Shown here piece by piece: positions 50,977 through 56,900 of a stretch of 64,000 nucleotides of DNA. The notes below the pieces were generated by a model, which ran no database searches, was not told the DNA's origin, and worked only from the letters and a program-made list of their open reading frames with translations. Position 1 is the stretch's first letter. The number at the start of each line of letters is the position of its first letter. This stretch comes from Phorcus lineatus (taxonomy: Eukaryota > Mollusca > Gastropoda > Trochida > Trochidae): contig OV121081.1 in assembly GCA_921293015.1 (NCBI GenBank), positions 51,919,877 through 51,983,876 of the forward strand. Direction: 5' to 3'. Made by a program: the position numbers and the translations under genes.

Positions 50977-53900
50977 CTGTAACAAAAGGAAAATGTGACT
51001 TGAAATTTGGGATCAAAATACATTGATAGGTTTTAACCTTTTGTAATATGTGAATGTTTGGTGTCTGGTGACAAGGGGAAGGAAAATAAATTTAAATGAA
51101 CTTGTTACTTTTGATTCTTTGAAACAATAATGCTGAATGATATGGAGAATAGCATCTGTAGTTTTTGTAAATATTGTGTATGATTTGGTTCTAGCACTAC
51201 TGTCATGCATGAATAGATTGCAGAGTTAAGAATGACAAGTTTTGCATGCCAACAGTTTTTAGGTTCAAGCTGTCACAATGATATAGCATGATGTGTAATA
51301 TTAGTGGCCATAACTTGTTACTACACATGATGAAAGACAAAATGTTATGCGTATAAAATACATGAAACATACTGTTGATAATAGATGTCACAGTATATAT
51401 TCATTGACATGCTGTTTGAAGTATATTCATCTCCTGTATTCATAAGTGCTTGCTAAGTAACTATCTTGTCTCTGATCATGCATCTAAGCTCTTATAAATT
51501 CCTTATAGTCACAAATTGTTTAAATTTATAACTGTCTAGAGTAATTTCTCAGACTTAAATCATTTTCAACAAATTTAAGAAATGTCCACCAACAAATTAT
51601 TCTTAAAACACTTAGTAATTGCTGTCAAAAACTATATTAATGAATAACATACCAACAGAAAACCCTGTGATGAAGAATAGGTTAATTTATCATAAATCAA
51701 GATTGTGCTATGGGATAAATAAACATGCAGAAAAGAACCATACAAAGAAAACTCAACTAATGATGGATGACCAACTAATAGTACAAAATGTGATTAGAAT
51801 GGAGATGTGGTTGAAAGAAAATGAACCGCGTGAAAAATGAAGCCAATGTTCGAACAAATAAATAGCAACATCACTGAATGAAAACAATGCAACAAATTCA
51901 TAATGCCCAAAGCTTGTAGATAAGTCATGAAATGCACATTTCCAATTCTTGAATATACACGATATGAATGAAATGAACAATGCCAAGTACTTGATAATGG
52001 TGATGAAAGCACAGCAGACATTGACAAAAACAAGAGGGGCGGTGTTAGTGAGTAGATGAACTTGCTGCACGTGAAATGTGGGAGAGGGAGGAGGGGGAGA
52101 CAGGGGGGACACACACGAACAAAACATGGGTGCTGTCCACATGGATGAGACCACGGTGTTACCTTCATCATACGGGATGTACTGATCATCTGAAATATCA
52201 ATGCTTCATAACAGTTCTCATGTTCAAACCATACCATGCCTGTGAATAGCTATTTACTTCTGCAGTGCTTTGTTATGAAGAGTCCGTACGATAAACTGAT
52301 AAATTGATTTAACTAATGTAACTGGTTGAAAATTACCACTTCAACAATTAGCAACCAAATTGAATCCACTGACTGATATATGTATTTTTCCTGATCATGA
52401 TGCAAGGTCACTTTAGATCTGCAATGACTGAGAGTAAGAATTTATTACATACTCTTTAACCTCTTTTAATTCTCTTTCAAAAGTACTTCCAGTCCTCCTT
52501 TGTGTCTAGTTTCAATTGACTAAAGAATATTTTCTAAACAAACAAAGGTAAACCAATCATAACATTAATGTGGTCAGAGCTTTTAACATTATAAACATAT
52601 ATTCATTCTTATTCAAAAAATTTATTTGCCAAATATTCGACAAACATTTATCACTTTTTAAAGTGTACTGTTGAGTTGGAGCTTTCTAATTCAAAGACTG
52701 GTTCATTACCCGGGTGAAGTGGGCAACTCTTAATATAAGAAGGTTTTCTATAAACCAAACTAGTCAGCCAACCAGGTTCCATTTCCCAAAATGATAAACA
52801 TTAAAGAAAAACTATTTACTCATGAAAGAGTTTTGTATGAAAGTTACCTAGCGATGACATTTATGTAGCTTCAGCAACATCACACAGCTGACAAGATACA
52901 AAACATACAGTATGTCAATAATATTTCAAAAACAAAAAATAATTCAAATTGTTGGGTACCAAAGAAACTATGCAACAAGCACGTGGCATTTGGCATACAG
53001 CAAAGTAAGCAGCTGACAATGATAAAACGGTTTAAGAACCGCACAAAACAAAGTCAGCATGACCTAAGAAGTCTGAAGGTCATCTTGACCCAAGCAATGC
53101 TTGAACAAACAAAATGTCTGCTAGCCAGCATAACACAGCCATTAACTGTTAAACATTGAAATGTGGTGGTTTATAAATGACACAAGGAATGAAAGCCAAA
53201 TAACCAAAGTAGAAAACTTGAATGAAAGGAACGTTAACTGGGAATGAATGTTACCTAGAAAATAAAATTCTAGATAGAGGGCAACCAGGTCAAGTTAGTC
53301 ATCAAGACAAATCAAGATGCCAACAGGTCAAATTGTAAATAAAACCTTTAAATTTTGGTTGTGTTGGTAAAAACAGGTTGTAGTTGCATATAGGAAGCCC
53401 TGATCACTGCAAGATCAGAAGGGTTTGTGTCTTTGCCGTGGATAATATCAACTGTAAAGAGAAACATGGACTCAGTTGTCAACTAAAAACTTTGAAGCAA
53501 AGTGGTCTCAGTGGAAGTGATGAGACAGAAACAAATGAGATGGAAAGGTTGAAGTGTTTACAACACAAATGGTGTAATGGGAAAGTGCTACGGGTATCTT
53601 CACTGCTAGTGCGTAATGGTATCTCTCTGAATACAGGTTTATTGAGATTACTCCATCCTATGGTCAAAGTAATTAAAACACTCTAAATAATATTTGTTTA
53701 GAAGCAAATAAAAGTAAATGGGTTTTACAATCTCAAAGTCATATCCCCCAACCATAGCTTAATCAACCATTTTTGTCCAAACAAATTTTTCATAACAACC
53801 TACCTACAACAACTTAACCAAGAAATGATTATGGGTTTAAATAAGGTTTGTTATTACCGGTACACAGGTACTAGGTTCAGAAAACCCAGAATTAAAGCAA

Positions 53901-56900
53901 TACAGGCAAGCAACTACAGTTGTCCCTTAGCAGTAGGCCAAGGGGAACTTTTTGGCCAATTCTGACAGGACCTTTTGAAATGGCAACAGTATCATTCTCC
54001 TCAAAATATCGTCACGAACCCTTCTGGGAACAACAGTGAACAGTACACTTACCTGCATTGAAGTGGACAATTCCATTACCAACTGAAATACAGATCTTTA
54101 CAACACTACTGACATAGGACTTGAAAGAATCTTAAACACTGTTAGACATTCTCAACTAACAAGCTACCAATATTACCAATATTATCTTGCTTATTTTCTA
54201 CTTCAAGATTATTCAATTAATCAGATTGATATATGTGATTTTACAGTATCAGCATAACATGTCTGATAGAATTTTCTTCATAAAGAAATAAACTTTGAGG
54301 TTATAAAGATCTGTATTTCAGTCTCATCTGGTCACGGCAGAGATCCAACCTAAAGCCAGGTTTCTGTTGGTAAGACTCTCAGTAAAGCTTACCATTTGAA
54401 GAAGGGCCAATTGGTGTGAGTTTGAATCCCGAACTTGAGACAGGACAACCACAAAAGCACAAGAAGCAGATCAGAAACAACCGATATAAGAAAATTGAAC
54501 CTCTCAGCTTATTCATAACTGATAGCGTAGTGTATCACTTGATTACACGTTTTGGTGATATTTTACCTTTAAAACCATCATTAATTTGTGAATGATACAT
54601 TTTGAAATTGTGATTGTTTTAGTAATGAGATTGGGGAAAAGCCTTTTATGATAACTTCCTTCCAGCATTTAACAAACTTTGAAAGTGTAAAATTTTTCAA
54701 ATGTGATAGTTGATGTCAGATCTCTCATACAAATATAAAATTCAAGTACATTTTCCTTTGGTCAAGATCTACAACATGCTGGATATGAAGTAATCATTTG
54801 AGTGTGCAACAGGCACTTTTGTCAGAACATCAACCAAGAGACTGCATCTTGTTCTCACTAAGACACTTATTCTCTGCTTTTAAACCTTCAAGCTAAGTTC
54901 TTTGGAACATAAATGCCTGTTTGGTGTCCTAATGGAAACTATTGGAGTTGCATCCGTCTCTATAATTCTCATATCAATTAAAAACACAAAGGCTATTCAA
55001 ACCAGAATTACTTCCACCTTAATTTCAGTGGGTAAAGCAATTACTAATCCATATTCATAAATCCTAAATTTAAGGTCAACTCCAATGGTCGCCATGAGCT
55101 TAAGGAAAATCGAAATGAGGGGATGAAAGTTCAAAACCTCACCAATGAAATCAAGTGTGACAAAGAACGAACCTGAAACTGACTAGCTTGAGAGGGCACT
55201 CGACCAGCGAGCAGCCAATCAAATCATGCATCGGACTGATCGGTAGGAGGAGGGTTCTGATTGGACCACTCGATACTGTCGGTGTACGAGACGTAGGTGG
55301 GGAGACACCAGGAGTCCCGGACCTGCACCGGTTGATACTTGGCCCCTGCCGAGGAGGAGGAGGAGGTCAACTTGGGGCGGTTATAAGTACGAGATTTGGC
55401 TATGTACTTACAAGACTCCTCTTCTTCCGTGTACGCGTAGATTGTCACGCACGACACCACAAATCCCAGGAGCTGAAAAAAGGCACTTCCTAAGTCAATG
55501 CTTTCTGATTAGAATTAATATAATTGAATATATTTATGAGAATACATTGAAATTGTTTCCATTTATACTTGCTAATGTTCAAGAGGTCAGATTAATGTTT
55601 CTCTAATTTTCTTGTGGGAAATAAAGTTTGATCTTATCTAACCTTAACCTTATATTAACTCTTGAGCAGCTAATACAAAGAATCATGATCATAGTGAAAA
55701 CTTGCAAATACCAATAGTAGTTTGCCTATTCATTAACCATTTTTATTTTTCATTCATTCAGTACACATATATGACAACTTTGAAACTAGTATTGGTGATT
55801 AACTGTCATAAAATTCATTCACAAAATAGATGGAGAATTACTCTGAAAAAGCCTTGATTAGTTGTTATTTAGAAATAGACTCTTGTACTCACAGCCTCAC
55901 AGAAATGTCACCTGCTTTTAATGAGGTTATTTCGTCAGCTTGTTGCAATCGAGGTGAATATAACATAGATAATTGAAAGTAACACACTGATTGATCCAGG
56001 TAGGATACAATAAGCATGCAAAAACTTTCTAAATGCATCACAAGACAGAGTTAATTTTTCTGTTGATAGTTGTGATGATGTGGTCAATGATTTTAGAAGT
56101 GTTTCATGAGTCAAACCCCTCCACCAAAAACTTATCAAAAGATTTAATCAAGCCTGCAACAGAAGTGATCATTGCACTAAGAGAGCCTCTAACAACGTTC
56201 TTACCGAGAGAAGACACTGCACAGCAGCATGTATAACCTCTACATAGTAGTACTGGAGAATACACCCGTCCACAAACTCCTCGGGTGGGATGGGCCGACT
56301 TGAGTCGACAGTCACGTCATTCTGCCACGAGGTGTTGGTCACTGTACAACCCACTCCATGCTCCAACCACCAACTCTTTGTTTTAGTACCAATAGTTAAA
56401 ATATATAACTCTTTATCCTGAAACAGAAAAGGGTATTTGTAGGAAGTATGCTTATGTTTGATTGAAAATAATTATAACCAATGTAACGAGAGGTCCTTTC
56501 TTTACATTACCTTTAACAGGCCTGAAATCAAGCTTGAAAATATAATTTTACTTGTTTCTTAAGGGTGAAAGGGTTTTAATTGTTCAAATTTCAAACTAAA
56601 TATTTAAATTTTAGCATTGTCAGTAAAAAGTTCTTTTATTTAGTATACTGGATCAGCAGGCAACTTGTAAAGCCTTACAAACTCTTGAAAGGGATAACAA
56701 TTTAGAGAAAATGAAAAACAGGCAAAAACACAAAGTAGACCCTTATGTATAAATTATTGTGCTTAGCAATATAAAATACATTTTCCATCCATGCATACTT
56801 CATAATGAAATCTCACAGGTAACAAGACTTAACTAACACGCTAGCACACTACAACAGGACCACAAAAACATCTCAAATATATTAGCCTATCAATAATTGA

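Follow-up and report, generated by a model that had tools for sequence, protein, structure and literature searches.

How does the NKAIN gene of the gastropod Phorcus lineatus end, and does it encode one cytoplasmic tail or two? The gene lies on the minus strand of a stretch of 64,000 nucleotides (nt) of contig OV121081.1 (assembly GCA_921293015.1, positions 51,919,877 to 51,983,876), which was analysed in full and is referred to here as the window; all coordinates count from its first base. NKAIN proteins are small membrane partners of the sodium pump. A preliminary description of the locus had proposed that the exon carrying the end of the last membrane segment is either spliced through two microexons to a distal exon or read through to a stop codon of its own. 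Our analysis leads us to judge it somewhat more probable than an even chance that this one gene has a choice of 3′ ends giving two tails. Two tails are a reasonable prediction given the identity of the gene and two terminal segments that look coding, mostly by their composition.

Membership of the NKAIN family was assigned by match to the profile PF05640, for which the curated cut-off is 25.9 bits. The four core exons, all with AG/GT borders, scored 203.0 bits when joined, with their 164 residues covering profile positions 19–177 of 206, and e2, e3 and e4 each exceeded the cut-off alone, so that the naming of the gene in the preliminary description stands.

61092–61229, minus strand: NKAIN coding exon e2, PF05640 72.7 bits, 46 residues.
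56983–57063, minus strand: NKAIN coding exon e3, PF05640 33.9 bits.
56205–56417, minus strand: NKAIN coding exon e4, PF05640 54 bits.
55412–55472, minus strand: NKAIN coding exon e5, end of the last membrane segment and EEEES, with the donor CTT/GTAAGT at 55411.

This is the sole NKAIN gene detected in the 958-Mb, 74-contig genome, the whole-genome family search having returned three matches, all of them exons of this gene, and no paralogue. A first coding exon gave no match in two strict motif searches of the 100 kb upstream and the last 4 kb of the window. There was likewise no match for this NKAIN among solved structures, and none to Rfam within 50000–62500 of the window. Among the points shared with the known family (human NKAIN1–4 and Drosophila dNKAIN), EEEES here stands where the peptides printed in PMC5325404 have EEEDS for the human protein; the predicted distal tail, with PPSY and no Pfam match, and the two predicted alternative ends would set the present gene apart. 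PMC3808344 describes NKAINs as neuronal Na,K-ATPase partners and states that dNKAIN is associated with temperature-sensitive paralysis.

Beyond e5, the two predicted ends comprise the following elements, whose coordinates, lengths and phases had been given exactly in the preliminary description, as re-checking showed.

55224–55411, minus strand: predicted read-through tail, 62 codons (the first sharing the last base of e5) plus TGA, guanine-cytosine (GC) content 0.56, furthest PF05640 extension.
54053–54082, minus strand: candidate microexon 1 (30 nt), 10 residues, donor CAG/GTAAGT strong, acceptor weak, combined score 9.2.
53638–53643, minus strand: nearest AATAAA past the read-through stop, at a distance of about 1.6 kb (1.58 kb) and beyond microexon 1.
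52163–52189, minus strand: candidate microexon 2 (27 nt), (D/Y)DQYIPYDE, splice sites at chance level, extending PF05640 to position 186 when joined to e5.
50627–50976, minus strand: predicted distal terminal exon, 116 codons that encode PPSY and a stretch rich in Ser and Arg, acceptor score 6.1, own frame best of six.
50456–50461, minus strand: AATAAA for the distal form, about 165 nt past the distal stop.

Exon e5 contains GTAAGT at 55411–55406, and its frame stays open beyond this site for 62 codons to the TGA at 55226–55224. Both microexon candidates are of phase 1 with AG/GT borders and keep the frame, so that each could be skipped. Splice sites were scored with a generic matrix. The e5 donor, which had been called perfect, is indeed consensus on its intron side, but with CTT on its exon side the whole site scored 2.5, the lowest of the four core exons (5.9, 6.6 and 3.7 for the others).

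The possible tails were then compared with that of the family. Extending the core, which ends at profile position 177, raised the PF05640 match to 207.1 bits and position 179 with both microexons, to 208.8 bits and position 186 with microexon 1 skipped, and to 211.9 bits and position 195 with the read-through; adding microexon 1 therefore lowers the match. In a separate test with a 31-residue anchor, in which the spliced tails ended after MRDSD, the anchor alone scored 20.0 bits, compared with 18.5 for both microexons skipped, 21.1 for both included, 23.5 for microexon 1 skipped and 23.7 for the read-through. Shuffled tails never reached the score of the read-through (0/17, range 17.1–20.2) or that of the microexon-1-skipped tail (0/9, range 17.3–20.7), both of which lay about 3 bits above their own shuffles, unlike the tail with both microexons, which was equalled or exceeded by two of ten (range 17.5–22.0). 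The tails were also aligned to the human NKAIN2 peptides of PMC5325404 with the alignment fixed at the EEE(D/E)S junction and 2000 shuffles per tail, which yielded P values, uncorrected for the four tails, of 0.0085 for the read-through, 0.0475 for microexon 1 skipped, 0.215 for both skipped and 0.40 for both included. Of the tails tried, the read-through thus appears to fit both the NKAIN profile and the human peptides best, if weakly, and the earlier view that both tails differ from the known NKAINs is not upheld in that wording. The form with both microexons, which the preliminary description had put forward, did no better than shuffles and is less supported by these comparisons than the form skipping microexon 1. 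Taken together, they provide modest evidence that the read-through encodes the vertebrate-like tail and that microexon 2, if splicing occurs, directly follows e5.

Whether the read-through segment is coding was approached through its composition, its frame and its codons. Its 187 nt have a GC content of 0.56, a value equalled by only one of 1276 sampled 187-nt segments, which itself starts at 55201 in the same region. Nine sampled segments had a GC content of at least 0.52, four of which start in the region of a homeobox gene, four in the read-through region and one in the distal exon. Over their first 187 nt, the introns that follow e2, e3 and e4 are at 0.35–0.39 and those that follow microexons 1 and 2 at 0.43 and 0.50, respectively, and the GC content falls to 0.38 within about 50 nt past the read-through stop. 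The length of the open frame was discarded as coding evidence because 162 of 2000 composition-keeping shuffles (8%) were open over the same 62 codons; the frame is not significant alone, and the composition is what stands out. With a codon model built from 13,219 codons of 30 receptor loci of the same genome, the annotated frame was the best of six for both the read-through and the distal exon, and the six-frame score of the former was matched by five of 2000 shuffles.

In the reading that we prefer, the outcome would depend on the donor at 55411. If this weak site is left unused, e5 would run on as a composite terminal exon and encode a 62-residue tail related to that of vertebrate NKAINs, the RNA being cleaved at some point further on, possibly at the AATAAA near 53643. 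If it is used, e5 would be spliced to the distal exon at 50976–50627, probably via the 27-nt segment and only sometimes via the 30-nt microexon 1, to give a tail of 116–135 residues with the PPSY motif. Both RNAs would then exist, and their tails may affect how the sodium pump is handled. PPxY motifs bind the WW domains of the Nedd4 family, and the distal tail carries one within ERPPSYDTT, which could bind WW-domain ubiquitin ligases; the 116 residues of the distal exon gave no match to any Pfam family. The arrangement resembles isoforms made by composite terminal exons and intronic polyadenylation in that e5 would have two options, splicing at the donor inside it or continuing to a stop of its own, and differs from them in the absence of a canonical poly(A) signal between this stop and microexon 1 and in being predicted from sequence.

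The two candidate microexons differ in how well they stand out from their intron. Their acceptors (0.4 and 0.8, compared with 3.6–8.1 in the four core exons and the distal one) are the two weakest of the seven scored, that of microexon 1 being the weakest, and the donor of microexon 1 is the strongest of six. Candidates for a chance test were in-frame segments of 9–51 nt. Requiring a score of at least 4 at both sites left no candidate in the intron, microexons 1 and 2 included, after which this requirement was replaced by the combined acceptor and donor score. Values of at least 9.2, that of microexon 1, occurred 0.035 times per shuffled intron (7/200 shuffles) and 0.07 times per intron length of the window, which places microexon 1 moderately above chance as a predicted exon. 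Values of at least 3.3, that of microexon 2, occurred 1.06 and 1.25 times, respectively; the real intron holds five such candidates, a count reached by 4 of 200 shuffles. An extended microexon 2, considered as the GC content stays high past its end, was rejected since the C/T tract that follows offers no better donor. This tract, followed by CAG and then CTAAC (52110–52030, minus strand), resembles another 3′ splice-site region, with no exon evident.

The microexons had also been taken as typical of a neuronal gene, an argument that proves weak. Microexons are defined as 3–27 nt long in PMC7935315, which excludes microexon 1 at 30 nt and would admit microexon 2 at 27 nt, and eMIC-dependent exons of Drosophila have UGC near the acceptor and a long pyrimidine tract according to PMC8797185. 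No TGC is found in the 40 nt before either acceptor, neither acceptor has a long pyrimidine tract, and the two are the weakest of the seven scored. Neither candidate bears the marks of eMIC-type neural microexons. A likeness to the neural microexons controlled by SRRM3/4 is limited to short, frame-keeping exons, a family described as neuronal in PMC3808344, and a borderline match in the genome to SRRM_C, the eMIC domain; the length of microexon 1 and the lack of both sequence marks are the differences. The SRRM_C match scored 24.5 bits alone (E value 0.04) and 27.3 bits together with its neighbours, the cut-off being 27; a second weak piece lies 2.3 kb off. One of 14 control genomes also matched, below the cut-off. 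A literature search of one library returned nothing joining NKAIN with microexons, and the records found for NKAIN with alternative splicing and the C-terminal concerned, judging by their titles, cancer gene fusions and CFTR.

The acceptor of microexon 1 lies in one arm of a near-perfect inverted repeat.

54082–54104, no strand assigned: arm over the microexon 1 acceptor, complementary at 22/23 positions to 54300–54322 and including the acceptor AG.
54300–54322, no strand assigned: partner arm, 195 nt away.

An 18-mer core of the repeat has one forward and one reverse site in the 958 Mb, which are the two arms themselves, and the 421-nt neighbourhood showed no other genomic match in a search that skipped very common words; as this search of the genome for copies of the region around microexon 1 recovered nothing but the query, a recent multicopy mobile element is unlikely. 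When the window was scanned for non-overlapping 23-mers complementary at 21/23 positions or better, with arms within about 660 nt in all, two pairs were retrieved, this one and 49147–49169/49601–49623. Under other rules, a scan gave 11 inverted pairs lying within 400 nt; 95% was reached only by the microexon 1 pair and an AT microsatellite. The pair at 49147–49169/49601–49623, also of 22/23, forms the inverted-repeat ends of a dispersed element; a 20-mer from the end occurs at 1210 forward and 1228 reverse sites genome-wide, and several of those listed form opposed pairs spaced about 450–460 bp. The RNA across the microexon 1 repeat folds more stably than all of 100 shuffles (z −3.6), and both the minimum-energy and the centroid structures contain the stem; this result adds little because a near-exact inverted repeat all but guarantees such stability.

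The strongest competing explanation, compatible with any other reading of the locus and falling only somewhat short of an even chance in our estimation, is that microexon 1 is no exon and that its TTTCAG is simply the end of an arm that a local inverted duplication or an extinct mobile element left behind. It would account for an arm that copies a site 195 nt off at 22/23 positions, for the acceptor being the weakest of the seven scored and for the poorer family match on inclusion, and it draws on the other 22/23 pair found in the window, which is part of a repeat present at about 2,400 sites in the genome. It sits less well with the two-site core and otherwise unmatched neighbourhood, with the lack, by eye, of a target-site duplication in the bases flanking the arms, and with the strongest donor following 30 nt on and in frame. 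Conversely, the hairpin, unique to this locus, could hide the 3′ splice site of microexon 1 and thereby set the choice of tail. When closed, it would yield the vertebrate-like tail or the one without microexon 1 and, when opened by a protein or by co-transcriptional folding, it would allow 10 residues to be inserted before the PPSY tail, which would bring a ubiquitin ligase with WW domains to the complex of the sodium pump. We regard this mechanism as improbable, and a functionless local inverted duplication as at least as likely as a regulatory hairpin.

Several observations weigh against our preference for two tails, and part of them also favour the view that the spliced form is the sole product and that the 62 codons past the donor are the start of an ordinary intron that is GC-rich and open by chance. 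The alignment P values quoted above carry no correction for the four tails, and unanchored local alignments to human NKAIN2 were non-significant for every tail (P 0.17–0.48). The absolute codon score of the read-through is negative (−10.6), compared with −12.6 for the distal exon, −33.8 for the homeobox exon and 5.1, 2.4 and 1.1 for those core NKAIN exons that were scored. The six-frame comparison is itself fallible because the own frame of the homeobox exon is not ranked best, its −33.8 being surpassed by −8.8 on the opposite strand. With amino acids fixed, the synonymous codon choice of the read-through misfits the codon model (log-odds −8.9, compared with +4.0 for the distal exon, +5.3 for e2, +1.2 for e4, −0.1 for e5 and +19.9 for the homeobox exon). 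Two presumed non-coding stretches, the C/T tract after microexon 2 and a stretch near 61880–62140 resembling a short interspersed nuclear element (SINE), reach GC contents of 0.50–0.55 in 120-nt windows across 48000–64000. There is no AATAAA or ATTAAA at 55223–54083, between the read-through stop and microexon 1, where only weaker variants occur, such as CATAAA at 54650 and AATACA at 54317; as the first AATAAA comes only at 53643, a read-through RNA would have to rely on a weak signal or carry a long 3′ untranslated region. The chance-level splice sites of microexon 2 weaken the spliced branch, and the prediction as a whole derives from this one genome, with no second NKAIN gene for comparison. 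The spliced-only explanation draws on the codon misfit, the missing signal, the GC-rich stretches elsewhere, the 8% of shuffles with an equally long frame and the consensus intron side of the donor. We nevertheless hold it to be unlikely, as the highest GC content of the 1276 segments falls here, unlike in the introns after e2, e3 and e4, drops within about 50 nt past the stop and coincides with the tail that extends the family profile furthest, with a score that none of its 17 shuffles attained. That the read-through is the only normal product, the distal exon belonging to another transcript or being rarely used, would suit the tail closest to the family, the weak e5 donor, the sites of microexon 2 and the distal exon without a Pfam match, yet seems improbable for an exon whose acceptor is good and of the correct phase, whose composition looks coding and which is followed by an AATAAA.

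Other features of the window include the homeobox gene at 42804–44180 (plus strand), whose first open frame matches 46 of 57 homeodomain positions and whose second, which matches nothing in Pfam, appears on inspection by eye to contain the remainder. Long open frames at 237–2574 (minus strand) and 23514–26300 (plus strand) resemble by eye the proteins of retrotransposons without long terminal repeats. The GC-rich stretch at 61880–62140 (minus strand) looks by eye like a SINE derived from transfer RNA (tRNA), and ARAGORN found no tRNA in the window. In addition, there is an open frame with a PAN domain at 14939–15286 (plus strand) and a C-terminal exon of a glutathione S-transferase at 37094–37333 (plus strand).

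At present, the prediction for the locus is one of ordinary alternative 3′-end processing, made from its sequence, within a family whose mode of action is little known. Should a single invertebrate gene indeed produce a tail like that of vertebrates as well as a long one with PPxY, this would suggest that the tail is where NKAIN is regulated, and the gene would offer a direct test of tail-dependent turnover of the sodium pump, together with a compact example of a microexon splice site within an RNA hairpin.

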